Assembly: GCA_019636285.1 (NCBI GenBank)
Contig: JAHBXV010000002.1
Coordinates: 1 to 64,000 of the forward strand
Source of the DNA: Planctomycetaceae bacterium
GTDB taxonomy: Bacteria > Planctomycetota > Planctomycetia > Planctomycetales > Planctomycetaceae
DNA length: 64,000 nt
Direction of reading: 5' to 3'
Shown here: positions 2,797-20,324 of the stretch, one piece after another
How the letters are laid out: each line of letters begins with the position of its first letter
How positions within the stretch are numbered: the stretch's first letter is position 1
Notes under the pieces: generated by a model
The model's input: only the letters and a program-made list of their open reading frames with translations
Told to the model about the DNA's origin: nothing
Databases searched by the model: none
Made by a program: the position numbers and the translations under genes

Positions 2797-2863
2797 CACC
2801 GGCTCCTTTCAGTTGGGGACACAGGACAGAGCAGGACGCGGCGGCCGCAATCGCGGCGGGCAA

Positions 2864-4048: not shown

Positions 4049-4469
4049 CGATCACCTCCATCGCCGGGGGTGGCCCCGGATCAAAGCTGAGCTGCACGCC
4101 TTTGGACTCGGCGTAGGCCTTCGCCTCGGCGATCTGGTCGATGTTCTCGTAGAAATCCCCGCGACCGCGTTCCTTGCAGATCCGCTGCGGGTTATCGAGA
4201 CCGGCCCCGATGGCCTTCAGATCGCCGGTGATCTCCTTCGCCGGATCCCACCAGGGCATCCCCGTGGGAACCCACTCGATCGGCAGCGTGCCGAGGTTGT
4301 AGCTCTTCGGCAGCGTGATCCAGCCGTCCTGGATGGCCAGCTGCAGCCGCCAGCGGGTCAGGTGGTACCGGAGGGCGAGCGAGTCCCGGCGCTTGTCGAT
4401 GCAGCTCCGGTCGTAGTTCATCCAGCCGCCGCGCGAACCGAAGAAGTTCGTGTGAGACTCGTCGTAAAA
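4032..4469 (-). pseudogene. Portal protein, C-terminal fragment (cut by insertion)
   Basis: From the Phe codon at 4467-4469 to the stop at 4032 this encodes 145 residues beginning FYDESHTNFFGSRGGW. That is the typical sequence just after the DIPFS-type motif of lambda-family portal proteins. The matching N-terminal part is at 16646-17637. The reading frame continues a few codons upstream into the inserted DNA (MKKNGVVHTS) but these codons are foreign. Translation of this fragment alone would lack the wing and stem regions, so it is almost certainly non-functional while the insert is present. Confidence 0.88.
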
Positions 4470-4482
4470 GGAGGTATGAACA
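4455..4482. other. attL-type junction of the 12-kb element
   Basis: Portal coding sequence (GACTCGTCGT on the plus strand) runs into AAAAGGAGGTATG, which is foreign. Joined with the right junction through the A-run it restores the portal frame as ...M-P-F-S-F-Y-D-E-S. The recombinase gene ends 72 bases further in, as is usual for serine-integrase elements. Confidence 0.82.
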
Positions 4483-4541
4483 ACCCCGTTTTTCTTCAAA
4501 TGCCACGCAAACTCTGAGGTGGCAATTGGTTGTGCCGCTAG

Positions 4542-6347
4542 CTATTGGGCAGCGATTTGCCAGCCAGACCCCGGAATGTATTCGATCAGCCCAGCCAGCC
4601 CGCCACGCCGGGCGTGATACGCGGCGCTGCTCAGCGAAAACTGATGAGCAAGTTCGGTCGCGCGGACCGGCCGTCCGGCCCGGCGAATGTAGTCCACCAG
4701 ATGGACGTACGGCTGGCTGGGATCGAACTCCCAATCGTCAAATGGAATTGGCCCGTCTGGCGTGAGGGCTTCATGAAATTCCACTTTTCCCGAGACCGCT
4801 TTCAAAGTGACTGCGGCATCCTGGCGAACCTGCTTCCAAACCGTGATTCGAGTCAGAGACTGCCGTAGCGCAGCGGCAAGCATTGGCCGGTTAGCCAGTT
4901 CCAGATGATCCCGGATGGTTTGCAGATTGCCGACCGCCCGCAACAGATCGCTGGAGGCCACAGAAGAAATCGCCAAGCCGTCCACGCGCGCTAGGAGAGC
5001 CTTTTCCTGCTCCCGCCAAGATGACAAGAGCCGCTTAATGCCGTCGAAATTTTCGGCATCCGCCAAGGCAAGGTTCTGTGTTCCCCGTTCGATCTTCCTG
5101 CGGACTTCGGATAGCTGCTGCTTCTCCAAACTGGGAGCGCCGCGCCGAGCTTCCAATTCACGAGCCGCCTTGACCAGTTCGGCCTGATTTCGGTCGCACA
5201 GAATATGCTTTCTGACAAGGCGCAACACCATGCGTTCTAAGGCGTCCGCATCGATCATCGGATGGACTGGGCAATCGCTCAGTCCGGTCGTCGACGCATG
5301 GCAGCGGTAGCGTCGTAGGGGGCCGTTGCAATAACTTGGATGCGAGTACAGCGAACCCGCCATCGGCGCCCCGCAATGGCCGCAAACGACCAGCCCGGAG
5401 AGCAAATAGCGACCGGGATCACGCGCGGCACATTCGTGGCCGGTCGCTTCCAAAACCTCTTGGACGGCTTCGAAAGTAGGCAGATCGACAATTCCCGGAT
5501 GAGCATCCCGGACATAGATTGTCTCTTCTTCGATTCGGGCAAACTTTCCTCGCGGTGAGAATCCGAATCGCAGCACTCCGGCATAAACTGGATTGCGAAG
5601 AATGCGAAACAGCTTCGAAGGCGTGAATGGTCGCCCCTTCCGCGTCCGAAGCCCCGCTCGGTTCCATTCGATCGCCAGGCTGCGGGCCGATCGCCCCTTC
5701 AAAACCCCGTCGAAGGCCGAACGAATGGCATCGACGAGTCGAGGATCGCTCGTGGGAATCAGTCGCGACGTCCAAGACTTCGGCCGGGAGAACGATTCGC
5801 CGTACACCACGCGGCGAACAACCGCCCCGCTTTCGTCCACAATCTCCCGGTCAAAGCCGAAAGGAGTCGTCACCAGATGAATCCCCTGTCTCGCCTTCAT
5901 TTCCCGGCCCGACAGAGAACGCTGCGCTAGACGCACGGATTCTGAACGAGCCTCATGCTGCCCAACGATGGCGGTTAACAGGCCGGAAAGATCGTCGAAG
6001 CGGATTTCGCCGCGCTGGCAGGTCACCAGACGAACACCGGCGTCTCGTAGCAATCGCCAATGGAGCATGGCGTCGAGGGCATCTTCCCGCGAGAAGCGAC
6101 TCTGCTCATACATGAGAACGGCACGAAATCGCCCGCTGGATGCATCCAGCAACAGTTGCTGAAACTGCTGCCGGTTCTTGGACTCCGTCCCCGTCTGGCC
6201 GTGATCTTCGTACCACTGAATCACCGAGAAGCCCTGGCGCTCCGCAAGTCGTTCAATTTCAGCCCTTTGTCGCGCCGGAGAATCTTCCTGTTTGTCGGTC
6301 GACATCCGGATATAGCCAACCGCTGGCATGAGAGTCTTTTCTGTCAT
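4542..6347 (-). CDS. Large serine recombinase (integrase of the portal-gene element)
   Basis: The 601-residue protein starts MTEKTLMPAVGYIRMSTDKQ. Ser16 in YIRMSTDKQ is the expected nucleophile, and QSRFSRED carries catalytic arginines. A resolvase domain (about 1-150) is followed by a recombinase domain (about 180-300), a zinc ribbon with CGHCGAPM near 330-375, a coiled-coil-like stretch near 395-445, and a C-terminal winged-helix-like tail (RATELAHQFSLSSAAYHARR) that most relatives lack. GGAGC precedes the ATG at 6347. It lies 72 bases from the element end and reads towards it, so it is the obvious enzyme for integration into, and excision from, the portal gene. Confidence 0.93.
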   Translation of the reverse strand: MTEKTLMPAVGYIRMSTDKQEDSPARQRAEIERLAERQGFSVIQWYEDHGQTGTESKNRQQFQQLLLDASSGRFRAVLMYEQSRFSREDALDAMLHWRLLRDAGVRLVTCQRGEIRFDDLSGLLTAIVGQHEARSESVRLAQRSLSGREMKARQGIHLVTTPFGFDREIVDESGAVVRRVVYGESFSRPKSWTSRLIPTSDPRLVDAIRSAFDGVLKGRSARSLAIEWNRAGLRTRKGRPFTPSKLFRILRNPVYAGVLRFGFSPRGKFARIEEETIYVRDAHPGIVDLPTFEAVQEVLEATGHECAARDPGRYLLSGLVVCGHCGAPMAGSLYSHPSYCNGPLRRYRCHASTTGLSDCPVHPMIDADALERMVLRLVRKHILCDRNQAELVKAARELEARRGAPSLEKQQLSEVRRKIERGTQNLALADAENFDGIKRLLSSWREQEKALLARVDGLAISSVASSDLLRAVGNLQTIRDHLELANRPMLAAALRQSLTRITVWKQVRQDAAVTLKAVSGKVEFHEALTPDGPIPFDDWEFDPSQPYVHLVDYIRRAGRPVRATELAHQFSLSSAAYHARRGGLAGLIEYIPGSGWQIAAQ

Positions 6348-6393
6348 GTTCAAAGCTCCGTGAAAGATGTGATTCCGCTGGAATGACGAATGG

Positions 6394-7092
6394 TTAGGAC
6401 GCAACGCGAGCAGGTGTCTTGCTCACTGATGGCTTGCGAGTGGGCTTTTCGTTCGCGGTCCGGTCCAGCCCCTTGAGCTGCATCGCCAATTGCAGGAATC
6501 GATCGGCGATGGCGTTTCGATCGTCTGGCGTCAGCCCGGCCGCGAGCTGGTCGAGGTTGGCGACAAACGAGTCGAGCGTCTGCCGGAGCGATTCGGCGGA
6601 ATCGGCCCGCACCGTGGCCACAGCCAGCGCTGCTGCAGCTCGTTCCGGCTTACGATGCTTCCCGGCCGAAGGGTTGGTCGACTGCACGCCCGCTTGCTCC
6701 AGGAGGAGTTTCACGCGGGAGAGTGTGACCGTCTCGCCGCCCCGCGCCAGTCCGACCGCTTCGTCGATCACCTTCTGCGGAACATTCTTCCGGGCTAGAG
6801 CGACAATCGCCGAGGGCTGGAATCGCTCCAGGCAATCAAGGTCGCCGAAAACCCGTGCCGCTTGCATGTAGTTGCTGACGGTCGGCTGATTCCAACAGAA
6901 CTCGACTTCGTACCAGGCGCGAAACACCGGCGCTGGCATCGATTCACGAATCTCGGTTAGCCTCCGGCCGATCTCGATCACGGCTTCCCCAGTCCTTTGG
7001 ATGAGCGCCTTGATTTCTTTCGCTCCCAACTCGGCTCGCTTCCTGAGAGCCTTGTCCGCGATCACATCGTACTGAAAAATTACCTTTGCCAT
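6394..7092 (-). CDS. DUF3102-like protein A
   Basis: This 232-residue protein has an N-terminal half that matches the DUF3102 pattern: EVIKALIQRTG-type helix, IGRRLTEIRESMPAPVFRAWYEVEFCWNQPTVSNYM. The C-terminal half is Ala/Arg-rich with a Lys-rich tail. The start at 7092 is chosen because AAAGGA is eight bases upstream, while the ATG six bases earlier is too close to it. It is the last gene of a run that begins with the tandem recombinase, 46 bases before the serine recombinase. DUF3102 proteins are common on mobile elements and are thought to be regulatory or DNA-binding; the function here is unknown. Confidence 0.6.
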   Translation of the reverse strand: MAKVIFQYDVIADKALRKRAELGAKEIKALIQRTGEAVIEIGRRLTEIRESMPAPVFRAWYEVEFCWNQPTVSNYMQAARVFGDLDCLERFQPSAIVALARKNVPQKVIDEAVGLARGGETVTLSRVKLLLEQAGVQSTNPSAGKHRKPERAAAALAVATVRADSAESLRQTLDSFVANLDQLAAGLTPDDRNAIADRFLQLAMQLKGLDRTANEKPTRKPSVSKTPARVAS

Positions 7093-7154
7093 CGCCATCG
7101 TCCTTTTACAGGAACCCACTCGAACCGCCTGTTCCACTTTGGAATGGGCACAAG

Positions 7155-7168
7155 ATTTCGCCCGAAAT
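7155..7168. repeat. Palindromic site 2, ATTTCGCCCGAAAT
   Basis: This copy lies inside the 12-kb insert, in the 78-base gap between the two DUF3102-like genes. Centre CC; flanks acaag and actca. Confidence 0.85.
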
Positions 7169-7170
7169 AC

Positions 7171-7659
7171 TCACTCGCCCAGACAGCGGGACCGCCGCCG
7201 CGTTCCGCGAAACGGGCGACGGTTCACCCGGCGCGGGGAACGCAGAAACGCCCGCCACTCGGGAGCCACAAACTGCGGGTCTGTGCGCAGGATCTCGCGG
7301 TAGGCCCGGAGCAGCGCCGCCGCCCGTTCCAGTTGCCGTCCTTCGATTCCGCTGGCCGATGCGGCTCCCGCCAGATCGGCCAGTTCGCGCGGGTCGCAAT
7401 CGTCGGCGGACGTGAACCGCTGCGCGACGTCGACGAACCACGCGGCCAGTTCCTCCGACCAGAGGAACTCGGCATGCAGCCAGGCCCGGTAGAGCGGGGG
7501 CGACAGCTCTCCGCGCACGGCCGCCAGGTGCGGCCCGATCGCCAGCGCCGCCGCCGTCAGGTCTCGCAGCGACTTCCGCGCGGCGTCGGCTTCCGAAAGC
7601 ACCAACAAACGGATCGACTCATGCGGGATCGCACGATAGGGGAACTCTGAGGGACTCAT
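7171..7659 (-). CDS. DUF3102-like protein B (short paralogue)
   Basis: The 162-residue product carries the segment IGPHLAAVRGELSPPLYRAW followed by LHAEFLWSEELAAWFVDVAQRF. This aligns by eye with IGRRLTEIRESMPAPVFRAW and the following residues of the neighbouring gene, so the pair looks like a tandem duplication. The ATG at 7659 follows GGAGG and overlaps the stop of the upstream 75-residue gene (ATGA). The C-terminus is very basic (RRVNRRPFRGTRRRSRC). Its role is unknown; two adjacent paralogues suggest a heteromer or regulatory pair. Confidence 0.6.
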   Translation of the reverse strand: MSPSEFPYRAIPHESIRLLVLSEADAARKSLRDLTAAALAIGPHLAAVRGELSPPLYRAWLHAEFLWSEELAAWFVDVAQRFTSADDCDPRELADLAGAASASGIEGRQLERAAALLRAYREILRTDPQFVAPEWRAFLRSPRRVNRRPFRGTRRRSRCLGE

Positions 7660-7883
7660 ACCGCACCTCCGATCGTCGCGTCGATCTCTTCCCGGACCGT
7701 GCCGGGGAAACGGCTCCACGCCCCCAGCAAGAGCGTGAGAACGGCATCCTGATTGTGGGCGTCCAGTCCCAATCCTTCCGCCACGAACCATGTTCGCAGC
7801 GTCGTCAGTGCGGCCCGGCCGCGTTGAGAGCGACCGAGGGTCTCTGTCGCCTTCCGAATGGCGTTTTCGTCAATGGGCTTCAT
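7656..7883 (-). CDS. Small protein of unknown family
   Basis: This 75-residue, mainly helical protein (MKPIDENAIRKATETLGRSQRG...) is wedged between the HNH gene, whose stop it overlaps by 14 bases, and the DUF3102-like gene B, whose start it overlaps by 4. No Shine-Dalgarno sequence is evident, so translation is probably coupled to the HNH gene. I recognise no domain. The tight overlaps on both sides are the main evidence that it is real. Confidence 0.55.
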   Translation of the reverse strand: MKPIDENAIRKATETLGRSQRGRAALTTLRTWFVAEGLGLDAHNQDAVLTLLLGAWSRFPGTVREEIDATIGGAV

Positions 7884-8223
7884 GGTCAGTCTCGCTTTCC
7901 AAGGGGTGGAGCTGGTGAGGAGCCAGAGACGCGCAGGCCAGTTGCAGGCGGACCAGCCATTCCGCCGGCGTCAGCGTCCCTTTGGCGGCGTTGCAGTCGC
8001 GGCAGCACAACACAAGGTTGTCCGCCCGCTGCGAGCCGCCCCGCGCGACGGGAACCAGATGGTCCAGCGTCGCGCTGTCTTCCGTCATGAACCGATCGCA
8101 GTAGAAGCAGCGGGGCCGATCGCTCCAGAGCAGTCGCCGCAACCGCGACCGCTTCCGGCGACTCAAATGGCCATCGAGCGGCGACGACCACGGATCGGGG
8201 AGAATGGGGAGGCAGATCAGCAC
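7870..8223 (-). CDS. HNH endonuclease
   Basis: The 117-residue protein has a compact HNH zinc fold: CFYCDRFM, then ATLDHLVPVARGG with the Asp-His pair, then NLVLCCRDCNAAKG. A GTG start at 8223 is chosen because GGGGAGG lies just upstream; it overlaps the stop of the tandem recombinase by seven bases. Most of a longer upstream frame is inside that recombinase and is not coding. HNH proteins of this size occur as homing or packaging nucleases. Placement right after a recombinase suggests a part in moving or protecting the element, which is inference. Confidence 0.8.
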   Translation of the reverse strand: MLICLPILPDPWSSPLDGHLSRRKRSRLRRLLWSDRPRCFYCDRFMTEDSATLDHLVPVARGGSQRADNLVLCCRDCNAAKGTLTPAEWLVRLQLACASLAPHQLHPLESETDHEAH

Positions 8224-10058
8224 GACGCCTCCCCGTTCCCATCCGCTTCGATCGCAGGTCGCGAAATGGAATCCGCGGCCGTGTGCGCGCGGTTCAGCTT
8301 GCGCGGGTCGACATACCGCTTGGTCATGTCGAGCGTGCTGTGTCCCAGATGCTGCTGCGCGGCGACCCAGCCGTGCCGATCGCAAATGGCCGTCGCGCAG
8401 GTTCGCCGCAACTTGTGAAACAGGTCGCGTCGACCGCGAGCCAGCCCGGCCCGCTTCAGAATCCTGCGGTAGCGCGCGATCAGAGTGGCCCGCCACTCCG
8501 GTTGGTGGAACGGGAACAGCAGTTCGCGCGACCGGAAGTCTGTCGCCTGCAGCGCCGCCAGCGTGTCGGCATGGAGCCGGAACGCTTGATCGGCGTCCTG
8601 CTTCTGGACTTCGGCGGGGACGCTCAGCCAGCCATCCTCATTGAGGTCGCTCGTTCTCGCCGCCATCAGGGCCGCAATCCGCAGGCCCGTGTCGTACAGC
8701 GTGAGAATTAACGCCACCCAATACCGACCGGCGGGGATGCCGCAGACCGCGCCCGGCTGCGCGGCAGCCGCCGTCAGAATCCGCGCGACTTCCTCGGTCG
8801 ACCATGCTTCGGGGAGCCGCTTCGCGGTCGGGTAACAGATCACGTCGCGGGGCAGATCGGAGACCAGTTTCTTTCGCCACGCATGCCGCCACAGCGCGAG
8901 CAGATAACAGCGATATCGGTTGATCGTCGAGTTCGCGCGGCCCAGTTGTTTGCGGTAGGCCAGGAACCGTTCCACCAGATCATCGCTCAGACAGTCGACG
9001 GTCGGATCGCAGGCCAGAAACCCGGCCAGAAATTCGACGACGTCGCGGTACTGCTCGATCGTTCCCACGTCCGCCTCCGGCAGCCGCTGGGGGAGATAGC
9101 TGGTCTCAAACAGATGCTTGAGCGTCCGTTCGCCGACGATCTCAATGCGGTAGACCTCCGGCCCGCCGACTGTCGTCTTGCCCGGAGAATGTCGCGGCAT
9201 CAGCGTGCGGCGGCGAACGTCCTGCGGGGGGGCAGGGCGCGCGACGGGGAGAGGAGCGTCAAAGTTCAGCCGGTCAAGGATGTCGGGAGACTGGCGAGCC
9301 GTGCGCCGCAGCCGATCGAACAGGTTGGCGCTGACGTGCGGCAAGCCCGCGCGAAACAGGAGTTCCTTGTAACGCCGCAGAAGCATGTGGAACGGGGGCT
9401 TGCCATTGTCGAGCGGCCAGGGCAACAGCCGTTCGAGTTCGTGGAAGCGAATGGCGTCCAGCGCTTCCACGCTGCGCGCGTGCAACCGATAGCCGATCAG
9501 GCCGACGACCAGCGTGCCGGTTCGCCGGTCATAGTCGATCTTGGGAACCGCCAGGAGCGCGGACACCGACAGACCGGTATCGAGGAGGACCATCTGCAGC
9601 GCCACCCACCACCGCGCCGCCGGGATTCCCGCCACGTCTCCCGGCAAGGTCCGAGCGGCGGCGAACAACCGTTCCAGTTCGGTACGGCTCCACGGCACGA
9701 GCTGGTTGCGACCGTCGTTCGCGATGGGCGACGGAACCGGTTCCTCGGCAATCAGTCCCAGACGGCAGGCATCGCGCCCCAGACCGACCAAACTGGCACG
9801 ATAGCAACGGGCGGTGACCGCCTTCATTCCCTGCTGAAGCAACACCGCGAACGCGACCGCCAGCCGTTCGCTGGTCAGATCGTCAGCGGTGAGTTCATCG
9901 ACGGGGACCGACAGGCCCCGCGCCAGATGGCGCAGGGCGGTGCAACGCTGCTGACTGGTTTTGATGGGTCGATCGGCGTTCGCCTGATCGACAATCTGAA
10001 AGAGAAATCCGCTTCCTTGGGGTTCGAGCATCCCTGCGTGAGAGTCACGCGGGCTCAT
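8217..10058 (-). CDS. Tandem tyrosine recombinase (inactive first domain, intact second)
   Basis: The 613-residue protein contains two integrase-type halves. The second has the full set: Arg460 (DTGLRIAAL), His548 and Arg551 (FHKLRRTC), His573 (QHLGHS) and Tyr582 (KRYVD). The first is clearly related (WSRTELERLFAAA... at 123 against WSTEEVARILTAA... at 419) but has Ser164 for the first Arg, Asp248 for His, and no HxxH/Tyr tail, so it should be catalytically dead. The ATG at 10058 is preferred over an upstream GTG-type start because the extra N-terminal sequence is low-complexity. It heads an overlapping operon with the HNH gene. Confidence 0.85.
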   Translation of the reverse strand: MSPRDSHAGMLEPQGSGFLFQIVDQANADRPIKTSQQRCTALRHLARGLSVPVDELTADDLTSERLAVAFAVLLQQGMKAVTARCYRASLVGLGRDACRLGLIAEEPVPSPIANDGRNQLVPWSRTELERLFAAARTLPGDVAGIPAARWWVALQMVLLDTGLSVSALLAVPKIDYDRRTGTLVVGLIGYRLHARSVEALDAIRFHELERLLPWPLDNGKPPFHMLLRRYKELLFRAGLPHVSANLFDRLRRTARQSPDILDRLNFDAPLPVARPAPPQDVRRRTLMPRHSPGKTTVGGPEVYRIEIVGERTLKHLFETSYLPQRLPEADVGTIEQYRDVVEFLAGFLACDPTVDCLSDDLVERFLAYRKQLGRANSTINRYRCYLLALWRHAWRKKLVSDLPRDVICYPTAKRLPEAWSTEEVARILTAAAAQPGAVCGIPAGRYWVALILTLYDTGLRIAALMAARTSDLNEDGWLSVPAEVQKQDADQAFRLHADTLAALQATDFRSRELLFPFHQPEWRATLIARYRRILKRAGLARGRRDLFHKLRRTCATAICDRHGWVAAQQHLGHSTLDMTKRYVDPRKLNRAHTAADSISRPAIEADGNGEASC

Positions 10059-10103
10059 GAACGGCGCGCTGCCTTTCAGGCGGGCGCGCAACGGCGTCGG
10101 GAG

Positions 10104-10132
10104 TCGCGCCCCGGTGCGAAGCCGGGGCGCGA
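10104..10132. other. Perfect 11-bp hairpin upstream of the tandem recombinase
   Basis: TCGCGCCCCGG and CCGGGGCGCGA are exact complements around a 7-base loop. There is no U-run on either side, so this is a structured 5' leader or protein-binding site rather than an intrinsic terminator. Confidence 0.6.
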
Positions 10133-10158
10133 TTCGGGAAGCCGATGCGCGCACGCAA

Positions 10159-10278
10159 ACGCCCTAGGCTTGGATACGCGCTCTACAGGCCAACCGAAGA
10201 TGGCCTTGGCGGGTCTCTCTCCCCGGCTTCCCGGATCAACGATTGAACACCGCGCACACGTACCCAAGCCTAGGGCGT
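10159..10278. repeat. 15-bp inverted repeats spaced by 90 bp
   Basis: ACGCCCTAGGCTTGG (10159-10173) is the exact complement of CCAAGCCTAGGGCGT (10264-10278). The spacer has no ORF. The pair sits upstream of the tandem tyrosine recombinase and could be its binding arms, a divergent operator or a structured RNA; the sequence alone does not decide. Confidence 0.6.
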
Positions 10279-10430
10279 TGGACGACATCGACTTCCCTCT
10301 CCGGATCGTTGTGGCCATAACTGGACCACGCAGTTTGTAGGTCCGTCAGGATACCGGACGGAACAAGGGACGCAAGGGGGCAGCCAGAATTTCCCCGCCA
10401 GCACGGACAGCGCCCCGTTCGCGCGGTCTC

Positions 10431-10444
10431 ATTTCGGACGAAAT
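10431..10444. repeat. Palindromic site 3, ATTTCGGACGAAAT
   Basis: This copy lies inside the insert and ends 11 bases before the ATG of the plus-strand membrane protein, where a bound protein would be expected to affect its expression. Centre GA; flanks gtctc and aacgg. Confidence 0.85.
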
Positions 10445-10455
10445 AACGGGAATTC

Positions 10456-11118
10456 ATGTGGGGCCACACCATGCTTTCCAGAATCCTGACGATGATCCGC
10501 CGCGTGATCGGTTGGTCAATCGCTCTCGTCTGCGGCGGACTCGCGACATTCTTTCTGGTCAGCAACGAACGGCTGCTCACCATCGTCTTTGCAGTCCCCG
10601 CCGTTTTCGGCCTCTACCTCACGCTGCGTCGGGGGCCGCGATCGCGGAAGTACGAAGACTATCGCTGGGGAAAACCGGCTCCAACAGCCCGGCAATTCGG
10701 CTATGCGTGCTCGCTGGGGATTCCCCTCCGCAACGGGCTGACGAAAGGTGATCTCAGCCGCTTGCTTTCCGAGGCCGAACAGAAACAACCGCCAACTGAA
10801 GAGCAGCTTGAGGACGCCAAGGAACTGGGGCTAAAGGTTCCGCGCGGTATCTCGAAAGGCGCCTTGGACGATTTGCTGGAGAAGGCGGATGAAGATCAGG
10901 AACCGGCCGACCGTGACCAACTGGCAATCATTCGGGAGTATCACGGCGTCCTACCGCGCAAGATCAACTATCGCGAGGCGGAAGAAGTGATCGAGTTTCT
11001 TGAAACCCATCATCTCCCATGCCCGTTCTGCCGCTTCGAGATTTGTGCGATGGACGACAGGTGCTGCGCGTGCGAAAAGAGTCTGAAGAAACTGAAGATA
11101 CCGATCAAGCTGGAGTAG
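10456..11118 (+). CDS. Membrane protein with three ~40-residue repeats and a C-terminal zinc knuckle
   Basis: The 220-residue protein has two membrane segments near residues 18-34 and 41-56. Three related repeats follow: PTARQFGYACSLGI..., PTEEQLEDAKELGL... and ADRDQLAIIREYHG..., each ending in a DLLxxAE-like helix. The C-terminus has CPFCRFEICAMDDRCCACEK, a likely zinc site. It is the only plus-strand gene of the insert and converges on the subtilase gene. The start could instead be the ATG at 10471. A palindromic ATTTCG site lies just before the ATG. I do not recognise the family; the position next to IetAS makes an accessory defence role possible but unproven. Confidence 0.65.
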   Translation: MWGHTMLSRILTMIRRVIGWSIALVCGGLATFFLVSNERLLTIVFAVPAVFGLYLTLRRGPRSRKYEDYRWGKPAPTARQFGYACSLGIPLRNGLTKGDLSRLLSEAEQKQPPTEEQLEDAKELGLKVPRGISKGALDDLLEKADEDQEPADRDQLAIIREYHGVLPRKINYREAEEVIEFLETHHLPCPFCRFEICAMDDRCCACEKSLKKLKIPIKLE

Positions 11119-11164
11119 GTTGGCCATCGTTTCCGCAAAGTGGACGGATCGAGGCAAGGCGACT

Positions 11165-13774
11165 CTAGAGCGGTCCCATTTCGATAATCTGAGCATCGAC
11201 CGAATTTTCGACACCGATCTCGTGTTGCACCGCAGCTTCGGCCATCGCTTCGTAGATTTCGATCTGCTGATCGACAACCTCAAAGCTCGCAACGAGAGCA
11301 TATCGGGCTGCCGCTTCGGGGTCGTTGTCCCAGCCTTCATGCCCTTTGACGGCGATGTAAAAGCTCTCCGGCAGGGCGTGTGATTCAACAACCGCCCAGT
11401 CTTTCTGGACGCTCCCCTTCTTTCGACTCGTGCCACGAATGGTGGCGTGAGTGGTGGCCGCTCCCAGCATCCACGGAATCGGGTCGCCTTCCCGCACTGT
11501 CCTTGTTCCCTCGAAGACTTGACCTCGAAATGAGGCCAGCGGTTCTCCCAACTTGCTCGCTTCCCAGTCGACCCAGGTGGACAGGTAGCGCCGCATGGTC
11601 CGGCAGGTTCGGCGTGGCCGCGCGACGAAGGCGAGGGTGATTTCGATCAGCACTTTGTGCTGTGAGCCCGAAGCGCGGACTTGCTGAGGAATGGGGACTT
11701 GATACAAGTGCGCGTCTTTCGCCTTAATCCAGCAGTCTTCCGCCGTGATGTATGTCGCTCGATGCGGCGTGTTGCGGGTCGCACGTTGAACGTCGGGAAT
11801 GCCGAATCCGATGCGGCGCATCAACTCGCATTTTCTGGTTTCGTCCAGGAACCAGGATTCCTCCGGCCACCGGGCCGATTGAACGATCAACGCCCGCGTC
11901 AGTTGCGCCGACGCATCCGGAATGACGCTCTGAATCTCCGCCGCGATGCGCGTCACAAGCGGTGTTGAGAACGATGTCCCCGATCGCTCCCGGCTTGCGA
12001 GCGGACCCGGCCCTCCGAAGGTGGAGCGGACGAGCATTGGGCAACACTCGGGAACGAGCCCGCCGTGACGAACCTCTCCCGGATTGTCGCGAGCGACCAC
12101 GGCATCGCCTCCGAACTCCACCACGTCGGGCTTGATACTCTCCCAAAGCCCAAACCCGGTCCGTGAGAATGCAGACGCATCACCAGGGCGCTGCGCGAAC
12201 GTCCGCCATTCCGAGAGTTCAAACATGCCGCGTGCGACAGAGCCAACCGTCAGCGCATGCAGACTCTGAGCGGGGTTCGCAATGCGACTGCCGGGGTTGA
12301 GCAAAAATCGGGGATACGTCTGGCCGCGTTGGACGCAGTGCCGAAGGCACTGGTTGTCGGAATCATCGTCGAGTGGAATGTTTCCCGCGCTCTGAACGAT
12401 CAAGATGTCGTTCTCATAGCTCAGCAGGTCGATCTCTGCCGACCAGGTGGACATGTGCTGCAACTTGCACGGATTTCGGGTGTTGATCGACTGATTGAAG
12501 ATCCGGGTGCGTCGCGGCCCTTCGTGAAAGTGTTTGACGGCCCGGCGAGTGGCGACGGCAGGATGCAGGTTTTCGGGCATCCCGCAGTCTGCGTTCAGAA
12601 CGCGGGCGTTTTGAATCCAGTAGTCGGCAAGAATGGTTCCACCCGATGGGACTTCCGGGCCATACAGAATGGCTCCCGCGACGGCCGTTCCGTGGCCGGT
12701 CGGCTGATAGTAGTCGGCGACATCGCTTGGAGATTCTCCCGGCAGGAAACACCGTGACGTCTCTTCGTCAATCGCGCCATCGAGCAGTGGATGCTTCTCC
12801 TGAATCCCACTGTCAATCACGCACACGGCCGGCGCGTTGCCGAGGGGCGAGAAGATCGTCGGCGGGTCGTCGATGCCCGGCACCGGATCGACCGGCAAGT
12901 CGATCTCGATTGGCTCGGCCTCTTGGACCTCGAAGACGTACGGGAAATTTAGAACCAGGTCTCGCAACCCGTCGCCGGTCAGACGCACGCGGGCGGTGAA
13001 GCTGTCCGGCAATCGCACGAAATCGGCACTGAGTTCGTCCGAGCCGGGCTGCAAAATCTCTCCCCGCAATTCTCGTACAAACCTGCGAACTTCCTGCTCT
13101 CGTTTCTCCTTAAGTTCTTCCCACTGCATCAACAGCTCTCGTCGTGTTTTCATCCACGATTCCAGTTCCTCTTCTAGCTCAGTGGGCGAGACTGTCGGAC
13201 GCTCGCGCGGTCGGGCCGGAAGGTCACTCGGACTCTCGCAACTCACGCCAAGATCGACTGTCAACGCCGGGCATTGGGAAAGGGAAGGCCACAGTTCCAG
13301 GAGTCGTTCCGAGAGGATGCGCTTCAATCGCTCTTGCTGACTTCCGTCGACAATGAATTCATGAACGCTCGCGACGACCGCCGATCCTCTCTCGTTGGTC
13401 GCGAAAGCATCAACCTGTTCCAGGAACTGCGTGAGGCCATCGCTTGAGCAAAAGACGACCACGCCGTCTTCCTGCTCCGTCACCACGTCAAATTCAAATT
13501 TCTCGGCAAGCGGGGCGACCGACTGATTGGGGTCGAGTTTGAGAAGAACCGGAACACCAACCGGTTTCACCGGTGAATCAGGGCGCGCGGGAAGTGCCAG
13601 GGCAAGTTCCTGCATGTATTGCCGACCGGCGTCGGAAAGCTTCTCGGCATGTGCGGCGTGATTCGCTCTGTTTTGCCGAGTCTGATTGTTGAGTCTGGGC
13701 GGGGGATTGAGCCGGGCGGAATCTCGGATTCTCGCCACGAAGCGAATGTGGTCGAAGTTCCGATCCGCGGACAT
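11165..13774 (-). CDS. ietS: Subtilisin-like serine protease, IetS-type
   Basis: The 869-residue protein has an S8 catalytic triad: Asp321 in AVCVIDSGIQ, His361 in TGHGTAVAGAIL and Ser601 in SGTSFSTPLV. A roughly 300-residue N-terminal region and a C-terminal beta-rich region flank the protease. No signal peptide is visible, so it should act in the cytoplasm. It follows an AAA ATPase gene after 11 bases. A cytoplasmic subtilase paired with this kind of ATPase is the IetA/IetS arrangement, first described on an Agrobacterium Ti plasmid as a maintenance/incompatibility system and later reported as antiphage. Confidence 0.85.
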   Translation of the reverse strand: MSADRNFDHIRFVARIRDSARLNPPPRLNNQTRQNRANHAAHAEKLSDAGRQYMQELALALPARPDSPVKPVGVPVLLKLDPNQSVAPLAEKFEFDVVTEQEDGVVVFCSSDGLTQFLEQVDAFATNERGSAVVASVHEFIVDGSQQERLKRILSERLLELWPSLSQCPALTVDLGVSCESPSDLPARPRERPTVSPTELEEELESWMKTRRELLMQWEELKEKREQEVRRFVRELRGEILQPGSDELSADFVRLPDSFTARVRLTGDGLRDLVLNFPYVFEVQEAEPIEIDLPVDPVPGIDDPPTIFSPLGNAPAVCVIDSGIQEKHPLLDGAIDEETSRCFLPGESPSDVADYYQPTGHGTAVAGAILYGPEVPSGGTILADYWIQNARVLNADCGMPENLHPAVATRRAVKHFHEGPRRTRIFNQSINTRNPCKLQHMSTWSAEIDLLSYENDILIVQSAGNIPLDDDSDNQCLRHCVQRGQTYPRFLLNPGSRIANPAQSLHALTVGSVARGMFELSEWRTFAQRPGDASAFSRTGFGLWESIKPDVVEFGGDAVVARDNPGEVRHGGLVPECCPMLVRSTFGGPGPLASRERSGTSFSTPLVTRIAAEIQSVIPDASAQLTRALIVQSARWPEESWFLDETRKCELMRRIGFGIPDVQRATRNTPHRATYITAEDCWIKAKDAHLYQVPIPQQVRASGSQHKVLIEITLAFVARPRRTCRTMRRYLSTWVDWEASKLGEPLASFRGQVFEGTRTVREGDPIPWMLGAATTHATIRGTSRKKGSVQKDWAVVESHALPESFYIAVKGHEGWDNDPEAAARYALVASFEVVDQQIEIYEAMAEAAVQHEIGVENSVDAQIIEMGPL

Positions 13775-13785
13775 GCATCGCGCTC

Positions 13786-14772
13786 CTAGGCGTCCAGTCG
13801 CTTCAGTTCACGAATCGCCGCGTCCAGACGTTCGCGAGTCACGGTTTTTTCCCCAGCGAGAATCGTGGCCTTCGCCGCGTCACGCGCGACCTTGACCACA
13901 TCGGCCGCCGACGCTCCAGCAAGAGTGGCAACAATCATTTGCCAGTTCATACACTGCTCGACCCCGATGTTTCGCAGCGAATCCGCCAACAGACGTTCGA
14001 CCTCTTGAACACCCGGCTTCGGGATCAGGAGCGAGTCATCGAACCGGCGGATGAAAGCCGGATCGAGAGCGGATTCTGTGTTGGTCGTCGCCACCAGCAA
14101 ACCGGGGGCATCGAACTCGTCCATCAGCAGGAGCAGCGAATTGACAATGCGAGACGCTTCTCCGATGTCCCGATTTCCGGTTCGTGAACGCGCGATGAAG
14201 TCGCACTCGTCCAACAGAAGGACGCATGGGCGGGATTTGGCCGCATCGAACACCGCTCGGAGGTTCGCGGCCGATTCCCCGAAATAGGATGAGAGAATCG
14301 CGTCGAAACGGACTTTCAACAGGGGGAGTCCAGTGTTCCAGGCGAGCCGCTGTGCTCCCAAGGACTTGCCACAGCCCGGCGGTCCGTAGAGAAGGACTGT
14401 TTTTCGCGGTTTGAGGCCATGCATCCCCAGCCGCTCTCGCGCCGCATACTCCGACTCGATACGGCAGAAGCGGGACTCCACGTCGACCGGAAGCACCATG
14501 TGGTGTTCAAGTCGTTCCTGCGGCACCATCGTCAGCAGCAACTCGCCGCCACGCTTGGCGGACGGCAGTTCCATCATCCGGCGCGGCGATGAGCTTCGAC
14601 CGGAATCGGCTCCCTGCCGCGCACTTCGAAAAGCCGATTCGAGCTGCTCGGCAATGCGAACATGCCCGCTGCTTCGCTCTGATTCAATCAGAAGTTCGGC
14701 CAGCGCGTCCAGGTCATCAGTGGAGCGCTCCGCGATGGCCCGCACGATCCGTTTCATCAGGGCAGCGTTCAT
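13786..14772 (-). CDS. ietA: AAA ATPase, IetA-type
   Basis: The 328-residue protein has Walker A at 130-137 (GPPGCGKS), Walker B at 184-190 (VLLLDEC), a sensor/arginine-finger region ATTNTESALDPAFIRRFDD and an N-terminal helical region (LIESERSSGHVRIAEQL) like that of IetA proteins. The ATG at 14772 fits the family start better than a TTG 51 bases upstream. It precedes the subtilase and is probably co-transcribed with it. In this family the ATPase is thought to control the protease. A palindromic ATTTCG site lies about 220 bases upstream. Confidence 0.83.
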   Translation of the reverse strand: MNAALMKRIVRAIAERSTDDLDALAELLIESERSSGHVRIAEQLESAFRSARQGADSGRSSSPRRMMELPSAKRGGELLLTMVPQERLEHHMVLPVDVESRFCRIESEYAARERLGMHGLKPRKTVLLYGPPGCGKSLGAQRLAWNTGLPLLKVRFDAILSSYFGESAANLRAVFDAAKSRPCVLLLDECDFIARSRTGNRDIGEASRIVNSLLLLMDEFDAPGLLVATTNTESALDPAFIRRFDDSLLIPKPGVQEVERLLADSLRNIGVEQCMNWQMIVATLAGASAADVVKVARDAAKATILAGEKTVTRERLDAAIRELKRLDA

Positions 14773-14995
14773 GATCCCGTGGCCCAAGGGGAAAGACAGT
14801 TCGAGTGATGGACGTTCTAACAAGTGTCACAGCGAAGATCACCACGAACGAAATCGGGTGGCGGACCTTTGTACAGTATCGGTCCGCAGGGCGACCATTT
14901 GCAAGAACGAGCGGCCCGGAGAGGGAAAAATGGTGACCGATTCCGGTTGCCATCGCGATGGATCGGCAGCCGCTGCCGACGAATCGGGAGAATTT

Positions 14996-15009
14996 ATTTC
15001 GGCCGAAAT
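14996..15009. repeat. Palindromic site 4, ATTTCGGCCGAAAT
   Basis: This copy lies inside the insert, in the non-coding stretch upstream of ietA. Centre GC, so fully symmetric, with an extended match TTATTTCGGCCGAAATAA. Confidence 0.88.
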
Positions 15010-15130
15010 AACCGGAAGAGAGAGAGCTGCAAGCCCCCGGTCGGCCGAGAGGTTGTGCCGTTCGTGGTGGAAACTTCAGCGACGCCCCGCAGAATGGCGT
15101 GGCTCATTCGGCTACCCATGCAAACGACAA

Positions 15131-15154
15131 GGCGGCGGCAAAAATGCCGCCGCC
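15131..15154 (-). terminator. Hairpin between the HTH gene and ietA
   Basis: GGCGGCGGCA and TGCCGCCGCC pair perfectly around AAAA. It lies 80 bases past the stop of the helix-turn-helix gene. There is no strong U-run, so termination strength is uncertain. The 463 bases between 14773 and 15235 hold only this hairpin and palindromic site 4. Confidence 0.5.
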
Positions 15155-15235
15155 TCGCCGTTGTGAGCGACCAGGAGCAGCCAAACTCCAATCGCCAGTG
15201 ATCAGTCGTAGCAGCCTCTGCTCGGTCAAACAATG

Positions 15236-15994
15236 TCAGAAGGCCGCGTCGATGGCCTCCCTACGGTTGAATTGCAGATCCTCATGCCGCACGCGACACC
15301 TCGCGGCTACCGTGTCCCCGCTCCCCAGCGTGTAGACCTTCTTCACGAAGATGTCATCCAATTCAAACAGACGCCAGGCTTCATTCACGATCCGCTCGTA
15401 CTCGGTCGGTGACGAGTAGAGCCTCAGCAGCGAAGGCAGAGACTTAATCGCATCCACTGGCCTGACCGCACATAGCCGATGAGCCAACGATCGAAGCCTC
15501 AAAGAAGCGTATTCCAGCCCACGCGAAGCGAGCCTCTTGGGTGGCGTGCGTCCTGCCATTTTGATCAGTTTCTGTTCGTACGGTGGTTGCTGAACAAGCT
15601 CAAGGAGAACCCGATCCGGACGTATGTCTATCAATCGAGCCGGTCGGCCGTACTGGTCGGTTTGCTTCAAGGTCGCCGGTATCTTCGGTCTGATCCAGTT
15701 CCGGACGTCTTCTTTGAAAGTATCAATGTGGTTTGGCACGGAGTTGAAATCGAACCAATCCGTTTCCCGGTCGACCGGAGGCATCGCTAGATCAGGACAG
15801 CCAGATTTGGCGTATGCCGCGAGAGCCTCCGGAGTGATCTTCCAGTCTCCGTCTTCACCAACCCGCGAAGCCGTTAGCTTGCGGCGGGCAATCAGTCGGA
15901 GAACCACGATTGAAGCTTGGCCGAGTTCATGGGCAGCCTGCTCGATGGTGAGGAATGGCGTCATCGCCACCACATGGCCTGACGGAGTTGCCAT
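15236..15994 (-). CDS. Helix-turn-helix protein at the element end, unknown family
   Basis: The 252-residue protein starts MATPSGHVVAMTPFLTIEQA after AAGGGA. Residues 12-66 look like an excisionase/MerR-type winged helix (LTIEQAAHELGQASIVVLRLIARRKL...WKITPEALAAYA). The remainder (PNHIDTFKEDVRNWIRPKIP...) is unfamiliar and has no catalytic signature I can name. It is the first gene inside the right end of the insert, the place where a recombination directionality factor could sit, and its N-terminus is of the right type for DNA binding. That role is inference. Confidence 0.55.
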   Translation of the reverse strand: MATPSGHVVAMTPFLTIEQAAHELGQASIVVLRLIARRKLTASRVGEDGDWKITPEALAAYAKSGCPDLAMPPVDRETDWFDFNSVPNHIDTFKEDVRNWIRPKIPATLKQTDQYGRPARLIDIRPDRVLLELVQQPPYEQKLIKMAGRTPPKRLASRGLEYASLRLRSLAHRLCAVRPVDAIKSLPSLLRLYSSPTEYERIVNEAWRLFELDDIFVKKVYTLGSGDTVAARCRVRHEDLQFNRREAIDAAF

Positions 15995-16221
15995 TGAATT
16001 CCCTTCAGAAAGAATGAACGAAGGTTTTGATGTTCCGAGAATTCGACGAAGCGGCGACCACGGCGGTCTAAACCCAACACGCGAAGTCCCGAAAGACATT
16101 TCAGGCTGTAGGCAACCGGGTGACCGGCGGCGACAGCAGGGTCGCGGTCCAACCAACTAATCACATGACCGCAAAGCCGTGACGGCGGGCGGCGGCCGCC
16201 GTCGGCCGCCGCTTCCGGCAA

Positions 16222-16298
16222 CCCGGTAGGTACTTTCCCGCCGAGCCGCCAAGCACCCCCAACGGGAACAGTCGCTGGGACGCACACACTTTCTTTCA
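16222..16298 (-). repeat. 77-bp dispersed repeat, copy A
   Basis: Read on the minus strand, TGAAAGAAAGTGTGTGC...TACCTACCGGG matches copy B at 20342-20418 with only about 7 differences, in inverted orientation. It lies within the insert, while copy B lies within the prophage. Inside it, CCCGG and CCGGG arms can pair. The short frame reading ESVC-PATVPVGG across it is a by-product of the repeat. Confidence 0.8.
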
Positions 16299-16311
16299 CG
16301 ATCCGGTTTGA

Positions 16312-16497
16312 TCAGGACGTAGCAGGAGGTTCCCTTCCGCGTTTTTGCAAGCGGCTCTTCTTAATGGCTGGTTTTGAAGAGGGTTGCGCTTGTTCGCCGT
16401 CCTGCTCCAAGTGCTGCCAGACGTCAATCCCAACCATCGCCCAGGCAGAGAAAGCATTTGAACGACGTTGCTCGTCCGTGAGCTCGTTCGATTTCAT
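16312..16497 (-). CDS. Possible small protein at the right end of the insert
   Basis: A 61-residue frame starting MKSNELTDEQRRSNAFSAW lies between a strong terminator and the 77-bp repeat. The composition looks protein-like (acidic start, Lys/Arg-rich tail), but there is no clear Shine-Dalgarno sequence. The same frame is open back through the terminator into the portal fragment. It may be a real small gene of the element or just the read-through tail of the broken portal frame. Confidence 0.35.
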   Translation of the reverse strand: MKSNELTDEQRRSNAFSAWAMVGIDVWQHLEQDGEQAQPSSKPAIKKSRLQKRGREPPATS

Positions 16498-16519
16498 GAT
16501 CAGCACCACAGCAACAAAA

Positions 16520-16558
16520 AGCCCTCCGCATTCGGCCAGAGCCGAGATGCGGAGGGCT
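16520..16558 (-). terminator. Intrinsic terminator just inside the right end of the insert
   Basis: AGCCCTCCGCAT and ATGCGGAGGGCT form a perfect 12-bp stem, extended inside by TCGGC/GCCGA, followed on the minus strand by TTTTTG. It would stop phage late transcription about 90 bases after it enters the insert. Confidence 0.85.
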
Positions 16559-16631
16559 TGGATTTCACGAAATAGATGGACTCGCAAAGGGGTTACTTCA
16601 TAGGCAGTTCCCGTCTCAAAGAAAACGCGAT

Positions 16632-16662
16632 TTGAACCACACTCCAAACTGAAGGGCATGTC
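16632..16662. other. attR-type junction of the 12-kb element
   Basis: Foreign DNA ending CACACTCC meets AAACTGAAGGGCATG, which encodes M-P-F-S of the portal on the minus strand. The A-run is shared with the left junction. Confidence 0.82.
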
Positions 16663-17637
16663 GAGCGCCTTCAGCGCGACCATAATCATCAGGCGGCTGA
16701 AATCCTGGAACTGCGTGCTCGGAGTGTTCGATTCCAGAAACTTGACGTCGTCGCCCCGGTTGAGATCCAGCTTCAAGGGACCACGGCCGAAGTCGACCTC
16801 ATAGCCCCGACTCGATTTCTTCGCGGCCTGGTCGCCGTCTTCATCCCCGTTGGCGTCTCGCAGAAACGCGATCGCGAACAGGTTCGAGATCTTTGCTTTC
16901 GCCTGGGCCAGGTCGAAGTTCTCGTACACGTCGGCCAGGTTGTTGAACGACGGCGCCAGCGGGCTGATGCCCCGGGTCTGGTCGAAGCGATCGAAATGGC
17001 CGAACAGATGCAACCGGCTCGCCGGCACATCCCGCTCGAACTCAAAGCCGCGTCCCCCACGAGCGCGACGGTGAATGGCATACGCGAGCGCCCGGCCGCC
17101 GCCGCGCACCACTTTCACCCCCTCGATCCACTCGGTTCCATCCGACGTCGACACGCGGGCGAGATCCGGATTGCGGATCCGGTCGCTCTCGATCCCCTGC
17201 ACGAATCCGTTGGCGAGCTTCAGCGTGCCGAAGTCGCCGTCGAGAACCTTGCGGGCCTCGGCCATGCGGATGTACTTGTCGAGACCGAACCGCGCGGAGG
17301 TCTCGAAGTTGGTCGTGCCAGACCACCAGCGCACGAGCTGCTCGCAGTCGGTATCGAATCCGTCGTCGCCGGTGCGGCTGTGGAAATTCGCCTCGCACAC
17401 GTAGTCCAGGTGCTTGCGCACCATCCAGCCGGCGATGGTGAAGTTCCGGACGATGTCGCGACCCTGGGCCTGCAGCTTCCGGCGGCCGCGGGTGGTCAGC
17501 GTCCGATCTTCCGACTCCAACTGTTCAGACGGCGCGCGTCGACGCCCCCGCGATTCTGTCGCGTGGTAGCCGAGGCTCGTCGCCGCCCTTCCCAGGAACT
17601 GGGCGCAGGCGTACCTGGATGACGCCAGCACGCCCAT
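16646..17637 (-). pseudogene. Portal protein, N-terminal fragment (cut by insertion)
   Basis: Residues 1-330 of a lambda-family portal protein are encoded here, ending ...MVALKALDMPFS at the junction. The frame then runs 111 codons into the insert before a stop at 16312, producing a chimaeric 441-residue reading. The missing portal C-terminus is at 4032-4469, and together they would make about 475 residues. The start at 17637 overlaps the end of the gpW-like gene, as expected for a phage head operon. Without the C-terminal stem the product cannot be a working portal, so packaging should fail while the insert stays in place. Confidence 0.88.
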
Positions 17638-18224: not shown

Positions 18225-20324
18225 TTACAGCTCGAGGTAACTGACGGACGGTGGTTCGACGGCGAGAGGGGCGGCGGGTTCCTGGGCCTGGATGAGCCGC
18301 GACCGGTTCTCAATCTTGCAGCCGAGTTCGGACGCTCCGACCGCGCAGCCCACCACGCAATCGAACCAGTGGTTGTCGGGTTTCGCCGTCGGCAGCGACC
18401 AGATGTCGACGCTGCGGACGCCGCTCGATTTCCGCTCGCGGGTCTCGGCGGTCAGGTGCTGGGCGAACAACCGGTGGATGTGTGGCGGCGACTGGAACAG
18501 GGAGAGGCTGTGATCTTCGGCCGGGTCCATGCTCAGGGCTTCATGCACGAAGCTCTTCCAGTAGTTGACGTCGGTCACGAGATAGCGGATCCCGCGCTTG
18601 CCGGTCTTCCGGAACCAGTGATGGCCACCGCGCTCTCCCTCGCCGGCGGGCCACTCCGACATCGGCTTGTGTTTCTCGCTGATCCCCTTTCCGTGCGCCG
18701 GTCGAATCAGGTGCGAGAACGGGCTTTCACGGCAGGCGGCATACACCGTGTCCATGGCCTGACCGTAGCCGGCGTCGACCAGGATCCGCTCCGGCCGCAG
18801 CTCGATCGCGTCGTCCCGCTTGTAGGCTTGGGACGCCAGCTCGGGCAGCAGCGTGTCGAGGGCCTTGCGGATCGCGGGCAGGATGTTCCGCAGCTTGGTC
18901 GCTTTCTTGATCGTGGGGTCGGCCGCTCGCAGCGTGAACTGCCCCTTCGTCTGCTTCGGCCATGTGCCATAGCTCAGCACGCCACCGGTGAAGTCGTCGT
19001 CCCACCAGCACACCGCCCAGAACAGCAGCCGATCGTGGACGTCGACCATCGCCGTCAGTCGCTGGGCTCGCAGCGGCACGCGACCGCGCGCCAACGGATT
19101 GACCTTGCGGGCGACCTGGTCCGCCGTCGGCAACGGATCGATCTCGGTGGCCGCGACGAGGGGTTCGTTCTGGTACTCGGAGGCGAAGGCTTCCGGATCC
19201 AGGAAGTACAGGTTCATCGCGGACTGCAGAGCGGTGACGTCGCACGGCCGTTTCCGCTCGGGCCAGGCGACGATGGCCCCTTCCTCCAGCTCTTTGCGGT
19301 GCTTGCGGTAGAACGCATTCGCCGCCTTCTGCACCTGCTCCGGCGTGGCGTCGCGGGCCAGCAGATCCGCGACCAGCTCGCGATATTCCTCCCAGCGGGC
19401 CATGTGTTTGGGCATGGCATACAGCAGCTTCTTCCGTTCCCCCTGCCAGTCGGGATGCGTGGCGCGGTTCAGCATCCGATCAGCCAGGTCATTCGGCTGG
19501 ATCACGGTGCAGGTCATGAGCGCGGCGACGCTCTTCCCTGGGCCAGCCAGGCCCAGCACGTCGGCGGCGACGATCTGCTCGCGGGCGTTGGTCTGATTCT
19601 CGCTGCGAGCGCTGTCGCGGGTCTGCGGGTCATCCAGGAGGACCAGCGTCGGGCGTTCCACTTCGCCGTCCGGCCTCAGGTAGTTCGCCCCGCGCACGGC
19701 CGACTTGATGGCTCCCGTCTTGACGATGGCCCCGGAGCCGGCGGCATCCGGAATCGTCGCGAAGACCACCGCCCGTTTCCCCCACACGATCTTCGTCGGG
19801 ACGCCCCGAAAGGTCTGACCCTTGGCGCGATTGGCGATTCCCTCAAGCCGCCGGCAGGGGATGCAGACCTCGGGGAAGTCGGCGAGCAGCAACTCGTTGG
19901 TTTCGAGCTCGGTCTTGATCTTGTCGATCGACTCGTCGGCCTTCTCCTTGTTCGCGCCGATCAGCATCGCGAACCGGTGATGGCCGTAGAGCACCGCCCA
20001 CAGGATGGCCCGTTCGCAGACCGTGGTCTTGCCGCTGCCGCGCGGCATGGCCATTGCGAACAGCCCCCCGGACAACACCGCCTGCTTCACTTTGGCGATG
20101 ATCGATTCGTGATCCTTCGACCATTTGAGCGGGAACGCCTTGGGGAAGTAGGTCAGCAGAAACTTGCCGAGATCCTGCTTCGCGGCGGACCGGCGTTTCG
20201 GGTTGGCGACCGGCGGGAGTTCCGGGATGGCGCGACCGGCTGCCGACAGCGCGGCCTGCCTCGCGGCGGCGTCGCGCTTGTGCCGTTCGTACGAATCGTC
20301 GCCCGGGTCGCCGGTCTTGCTCAA
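18225..20324 (-). CDS. Terminase large subunit
   Basis: The 699-residue protein has Walker A at 93-100 (MPRGSGKT), a Walker B-like TLVLLDDPQT and a C-terminal nuclease half with Asp-bearing strands (MVDVHDRLLFWAV, ILVDAGYGQAMD, DNHWFDCVVG). This is the large-terminase plan, of the long GpA-like kind. It packages DNA into the prohead through the portal. It is encoded just before the zinc-ribbon, gpW-like and portal genes. No separate small terminase is obvious upstream, where a Gam-like gene sits instead. Confidence 0.87.
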   Translation of the reverse strand: MSKTGDPGDDSYERHKRDAAARQAALSAAGRAIPELPPVANPKRRSAAKQDLGKFLLTYFPKAFPLKWSKDHESIIAKVKQAVLSGGLFAMAMPRGSGKTTVCERAILWAVLYGHHRFAMLIGANKEKADESIDKIKTELETNELLLADFPEVCIPCRRLEGIANRAKGQTFRGVPTKIVWGKRAVVFATIPDAAGSGAIVKTGAIKSAVRGANYLRPDGEVERPTLVLLDDPQTRDSARSENQTNAREQIVAADVLGLAGPGKSVAALMTCTVIQPNDLADRMLNRATHPDWQGERKKLLYAMPKHMARWEEYRELVADLLARDATPEQVQKAANAFYRKHRKELEEGAIVAWPERKRPCDVTALQSAMNLYFLDPEAFASEYQNEPLVAATEIDPLPTADQVARKVNPLARGRVPLRAQRLTAMVDVHDRLLFWAVCWWDDDFTGGVLSYGTWPKQTKGQFTLRAADPTIKKATKLRNILPAIRKALDTLLPELASQAYKRDDAIELRPERILVDAGYGQAMDTVYAACRESPFSHLIRPAHGKGISEKHKPMSEWPAGEGERGGHHWFRKTGKRGIRYLVTDVNYWKSFVHEALSMDPAEDHSLSLFQSPPHIHRLFAQHLTAETRERKSSGVRSVDIWSLPTAKPDNHWFDCVVGCAVGASELGCKIENRSRLIQAQEPAAPLAVEPPSVSYLEL

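Follow-up and report, generated by a model that had tools for sequence, protein, structure and literature searches.

The gene pair at positions 11165-14772 of the window, i.e., the whole analyzed stretch of 64,000 nucleotides from a Planctomycetaceae bacterium (contig JAHBXV010000002.1), raises the question of what kind of element carries an IetAS-type ATPase and protease into the packaging gene of a phage and which use the pair might have there. We consider it probable that a mobile element living in the portal gene of a phage carries the pair as cargo, and that a serine recombinase inserts this element there and probably also removes it.

The AAA+ ATPase IetA (13786-14772, minus strand) comprises 328 aa when read from an ATG, with an alternative TTG start at 14823 leading to 345 aa, and matches Pfam AAA (1.1e-29) and the PADLOC profile of IetA (5.4e-70). 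Its translation contains GPPGCGKS and LLLDECD, which we take to be Walker A and Walker B, respectively, and its matches in a PDB search were p97/Cdc48-type AAA domains. The gene for the subtilase IetS (11165-13774, minus strand, 869 aa; Pfam Peptidase_S8 3.6e-34; PADLOC IetS 7.3e-56) lies at a distance of 11 nt, and no solved structure was matched by its sequence in the PDB search. Asp321, His361, Asn465, and Ser601 are shared by all 12 IetS proteins that were aligned, the catalytic triad Asp321/His361/Ser601 being intact. The preliminary description of this DNA had proposed exactly this, namely an adjacent and co-directional IetAS pair with intact catalytic residues and Ser601 as one of them, and the profile searches, the shared minus strand, and the alignment are all in agreement with it. 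Judged by these comparisons, the pair is a further member of the known IetAS family.

Anti-phage activity of IetAS was reportedly described by Gao et al. in 2020, and PADLOC classes the system under defence. The accessible part of PMC11267873 describes its mechanism as unknown and one copy as prophage-encoded. According to the accessible parts of PMC5006074 and PMC8562856, AAA/subtilase pairs are toxin-antitoxin modules on SGI1, on pTiC58, and in mycoplasmas, with the subtilase as toxin and the AAA protein as antitoxin. Like IetAS of pTiC58 and SgiAT of SGI1 (S026-S025), the pair described here consists of adjacent AAA ATPase and subtilase genes on a mobile element; it differs from them in host, carrier, and sequence. 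By analogy, it may serve as a toxin-antitoxin-like module for both anti-phage defence and maintenance.

The element carrying the pair extends from about 4470 to 16647 (12,178 bp including one copy of a TT core, ends read from the sequence) and separates two parts of a portal gene on the minus strand. The 5′ part (16648-17637) encodes residues 1-330, matches Pfam Phage_portal_2 (1.7e-27) as well as a PHROG portal family, and covers columns 52-372 of a portal HMM that was built from 20 intact portals and run on six frames; its open frame extends to 16312, inside the element. The 3′ part (4032-4469, HMM columns 366-501) was matched by tblastn to the portals of all eight relatives, and all eight of these homologous portals, located in seven other genomes, are contiguous at the break point of the window. 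Further genes of the interrupted phage are those of the terminase large subunit (18225-20324, minus strand; Pfam GpA_nuclease 9.4e-16), with Mu Gam-like and ParB-like proteins encoded upstream, and of the major capsid protein (1831-2799, minus strand; Pfam GP7 5.9e-19). Because the contig starts at base 1 of the window, the assembly contains only part of the phage. The split portal and its unbroken homologs bear out the earlier proposal of an element that has the pair as cargo and a packaging gene as its insertion site. The accompanying claim that the phage was disabled by the insertion is not supported by the sequence: each portal half retains an open reading frame, and joined at TT, the only in-register core common to both junctions, they would read MPFS-FYDES, in frame and like the intact relatives; moreover, the closest parallel, discussed below, excises and restores its late gene.

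At the left end of the element, a large serine recombinase of 620 aa is encoded (4542-6404, minus strand and hence that of the portal; Pfam Resolvase/Recombinase/Zn_ribbon; phrog_95 integrase 2e-84). It is followed by a DUF3102 protein (6394-7137, minus strand; Pfam 2.1e-05), which is also part of the chassis of the relatives G015, G021, and G205 (G and L numbers are our own handles), a small ORF, and an HNH endonuclease domain region (7870-8242, minus strand; Pfam HNH_5 2.9e-12, called on the longer frame 7870-8496). Next to these, a tandem tyrosine-recombinase-like protein of 645 aa (8217-10154, minus strand; phrog_1 integrase 3.8e-34) contains two such halves, with Pfam Phage_integrase matching the C half only. 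Relatives of this protein occur in 7 of 396 other genomes of the class (E<=1e-40), and among the loci compared it co-occurs with DUF3102 only in G015, G021, and G205. Just upstream of its gene, a repeat search revealed a 21-nt inverted repeat (10158-10178/10259-10279, 95%). An ORF of 220 aa (10456-11118, plus strand) had no Pfam match and shows, from its sequence, a probable membrane segment and CxxC motifs. Close to the right end lies a gene for a weakly AlpA/excisionase-like HTH_17 protein (15236-16156, minus strand; Pfam 2.8e-04, under the curated cut-off); compared with the HE-PICI feature (see below) of an AlpA gene next to the integrase, it is encoded at the opposite end from the recombinase. 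No primase, RepA-like, AAA_25, or D5/Prim-Pol gene was present among the scanned frames. Since most relatives do carry a replication gene, the window element may be a decayed or a differently organized member of its group.

Relatives of the recombinase were searched in 59 neighborhood genomes and in 397 genomes of the class (18 at E<=1e-60, own genome included). An alignment of 12 recombinases used as query yielded 25 loci in GTDB genomes and 19 in IMG/VR; a scan of IMG/VR with the single recombinase protein found nothing. After removal of duplicate records and of matches below 400 HMM positions 43 recombinases were kept, not all of them independent because L157/L183 (same phage) and L188/L189 (two phages) have near-identical recombinases. 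Six end at a contig edge and 37 have sequence beyond the recombinase. In 25 of these 37 a portal 3′ half was found within about 1.8 kb downstream, always with the recombinase on the strand of the portal (25/25); in one (G205) a capsid gene lacking its 5′ part adjoins the recombinase, and 11 showed no portal. Two recurrent positions of the portal HMM account for most insertions, site A at 333-341 (n=11) and site B at 354-366 (n=12), with single cases at 287 and 439. On the recombinase tree the site A/B labels require one change, compared to 7.95 on average for shuffled labels, which never took fewer than 3 in 2000 shuffles. Portal matches ending at residue 292 had been considered as break points and were dropped, as the query itself ended there; break points were taken from open frames and split halves instead.

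Among the 34 recombinases of at least 640 bits, 24 adjoin a portal and one a capsid gene, five adjoin neither, and four end at a contig edge. Five close relatives have downstream sequence and no portal half (G304, G057, G023, L164, and G351), with only 1.3 kb following the recombinase in G351, the close relative L167 of which shows its portal half at 1.8 kb. Scans with PF04860 and PF05065 detected no split portal or capsid in the covered relatives of the group without portal. Thirty Pfam Recombinase loci taken from 59 genomes of the class served as a control, and two of these loci fell inside the clade (the window, with a portal match, and G057, with none). None of the 28 outside had a portal match, a modest control because two of the 28 are without clade-profile match and downstream sequence is only 0 to 1.4 kb. 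In the window, 79 nt separate the recombinase match from the portal 3′ half (HMM column 366), which shares its strand. Its recombinase groups with those of G205 (capsid gene), L181, and L158, on long branches and with a support of 0.56 at one node. These alignments place the window recombinase in a clade for which phage portal genes are a recurrent target. The recurrence of one recombinase type in the portal gene makes the element look like a phage parasite and not like a one-off accident.

Several observations were made alongside this survey. G111, G183, G172, and G070 were not counted, having short portal frames and no clade recombinase in the fetched stretch; in G111 (L154 3348-4112) the portal 5′ part ends at the MPFN codons of site B, with no recognized clade recombinase within the 14 kb fetched. 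In G021 (L045 13399-15828) a second, partial resolvase domain is fused ahead of the recombinase. L169 and L157 are filed under a Sphingomonadaceae and a Nealsonbacteria MAG, respectively; as L169 is 91% identical to the viral contig L194 and L157 99.9% to L183, a binning error is likely.

In 11 cases representing 10 distinct elements, a single contig contained the element with a portal half on either side, namely in the window, G117, G165, G180, and the viral records G408-G412, G415, and G417; G307 (halves on two contigs) as well as G336 and G092 (one-sided) were left out of this count. Several relatives have in-register cores of 5-8 bp, e.g., CCGTTCAA at site B (L194, L234) and GTCGATCC in G165, and the TT core of the window is shorter than those of the other site-B elements. 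In G411 and G412 the element shows 100% identity throughout 15,765 nt (L232 614-16378), in agreement with the core-to-core interval (638, 16362), whereas the split portals are 90.4% (5′ half) and 93.2% (3′ half) identical and the flank beyond is 92.3% identical over 2263 nt. An identical element in portals of only 90-93% identity indicates that the element moves. Most simply, one element would have inserted twice in recent time, once into each of two related phages; the same pattern might also stem from recombination of the flanks.

A replication gene (AAA_25 or D5/Prim-Pol) is located near the portal 5′ half in 8 of the 10 distinct two-sided elements, with L230 not scanned. AAA_25 was found by Pfam in G117, G165, and G180 and by similarity in L229 and L232/L233; D5 or Prim-Pol types were found in L194, L231, and L234. 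The cargo varies. Type I restriction-modification (RM) genes are present in G180, L230, and L234, the last of which, also inserted in a portal, encodes a second, divergent IetAS (PADLOC IetA 4.5e-71, IetS 4.3e-32). Altogether, 4 of the 10 distinct elements carry a named defence system and 2 of the 10 IetAS, the cargo of L194 not being scanned. Other cargo includes an SNF2 helicase with weak defence matches (L231), a kinase, AAA_5, and methylase (G165), and an own capsid homolog plus a subtilase (G117). The protease-capsid-type protein of the G117 element (L137 2157-3998) is about 35% identical to the capsid of the resident phage, reminiscent of capsid-bearing satellites. HsdM/HsdR-like genes occur in one-sided L167, and McrBC and RM on that contig of G307 which bears the portal 5′ half; the type I RM of G021 was not counted as cargo, being located on the far side of its recombinase. 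No defence match was obtained for the three cargo ORFs of L229 or for the 1809-aa protein of L232, and two downstream ORFs had no match in PDB searches. The L229 ORFs (5514-11981; 548, 836, and 768 aa), adjacent, large, without Pfam or PADLOC match, and placed in the defence slot, are a candidate for a new defence operon. A conserved protein of the relatives (255 aa in G180) has a coiled-coil appearance.

IetAS itself was matched in 24 of 397 genomes of the class (E<=1e-30, own genome included). Its relatives had been tried as a guide to the element and failed as such, since none of the 15 fetched IetAS loci contained any other gene of the window element, which in turn indicates that IetAS is exchangeable cargo. 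It is conceivable, though we hold it to be somewhat doubtful, that the pair is an addiction module only, which keeps the element in place and has no anti-phage role. The toxin-antitoxin function of such pairs on SGI1 and pTiC58 and in mycoplasmas speaks in favor of this; the type I RM in the same slot of relatives, which fits defence, and the listing of IetAS as defence by PADLOC speak against it. Addiction and anti-phage roles of IetAS would be compatible with each other.

The closest parallel to the carrier are the helper-embedded PICIs (HE-PICIs), Gram-negative PICIs which the accessible part of PMC10111431 describes as satellites that reside in the late genes of their helper prophages, with 491 of them mapped to 14 sites including the portal sites B:Phage_portal_2:241 and :21. 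According to the same part, their integrase tree respects insertion sites, excision with restoration of the late gene was measured on induction, and no integrases other than tyrosine integrases are used; its main text contains neither serine nor Planctomyc as a word. Like a HE-PICI, the window element is satellite-sized, splits a late gene of a prophage, and has an integrase on the strand of that gene from a clade with repeated late-gene tropism and subclades by site, and its relatives have a primase. Unlike a HE-PICI, its terminal integrase is a large serine recombinase, the tandem tyrosine recombinase being internal, it has no primase among the frames scanned, and its clade is found in Planctomycetes and metagenomic viral contigs, with cores of 2-8 bp and RM or IetAS as cargo. 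P4, another satellite, is not known to reside inside its helper. P4-like satellites with defence hotspots, as described in the accessible part of PMC9122126, share variable anti-phage cargo with the window element and differ from it in integrase type. A serine-recombinase counterpart of HE-PICIs was not found in the literature searched, with subscription papers and preprints being outside its coverage. In terms of gene content and position, the carrier is a portal-embedded, satellite-like element with a serine recombinase, a separate version in Planctomycetes.

All this is in line with the following scenario. Insertion by the serine recombinase would take place at a conserved stretch within the portal gene, and the same enzyme would probably also excise the element. 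In the integrated state the portal would be split, so that the prophage could not make it. As the recombinase gene is situated at the distal end of the insert and on the strand of the portal, late transcripts of the prophage could extend through it, which might lead to excision and thereby to a restored portal; no excised form was seen. Judging from its relatives, IetAS could punish cells that lose the element, with IetA holding the IetS protease in check, or could block competing phages.

A dead prophage appears unlikely. According to that explanation, a single landing in the portal gene killed the phage and host selection keeps a harmless remnant together with IetAS as a host defence. The split portal, the missing replication gene of the window element, and the truncated helpers reported for many cases in the accessible part of the HE-PICI survey (PMC10111431) would suit it. 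However, the portal halves of the window are open, the complete portal C halves of the relatives are open in one frame with the frameshifted L191 as sole exception, the element of G411/G412 moved recently, and the site preference extends across the whole recombinase clade. Even though the element also has a tandem tyrosine recombinase and an HNH protein and the G117 element a capsid-like gene of its own, a nested phage or transposon using portals by chance is highly improbable given the 25 of 37 evaluable relatives in portals versus 0 of 28 controls and the two recurrent codon positions.

We therefore return to the mobile, portal-resident element. Whether it represents an independent second origin of helper-embedded satellites, i.e., a Planctomycetes serine-recombinase lineage in portal genes for which late transcription triggers excision and portal repair and which directs IetAS or restriction against rival phages of its helper, seems evenly balanced to us. 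If true, late-gene targeting would have arisen two or more times in evolution by means of unrelated recombinases, and this would suggest that living within the helper is a genuine strategy. Phage satellites would then be linked to defence islands in a phylum with little-known phages, the conserved portal codons would constitute a defined attB testable in vitro, and IetAS would be placed in a setting in which its role in maintenance could be told apart from that against phages.
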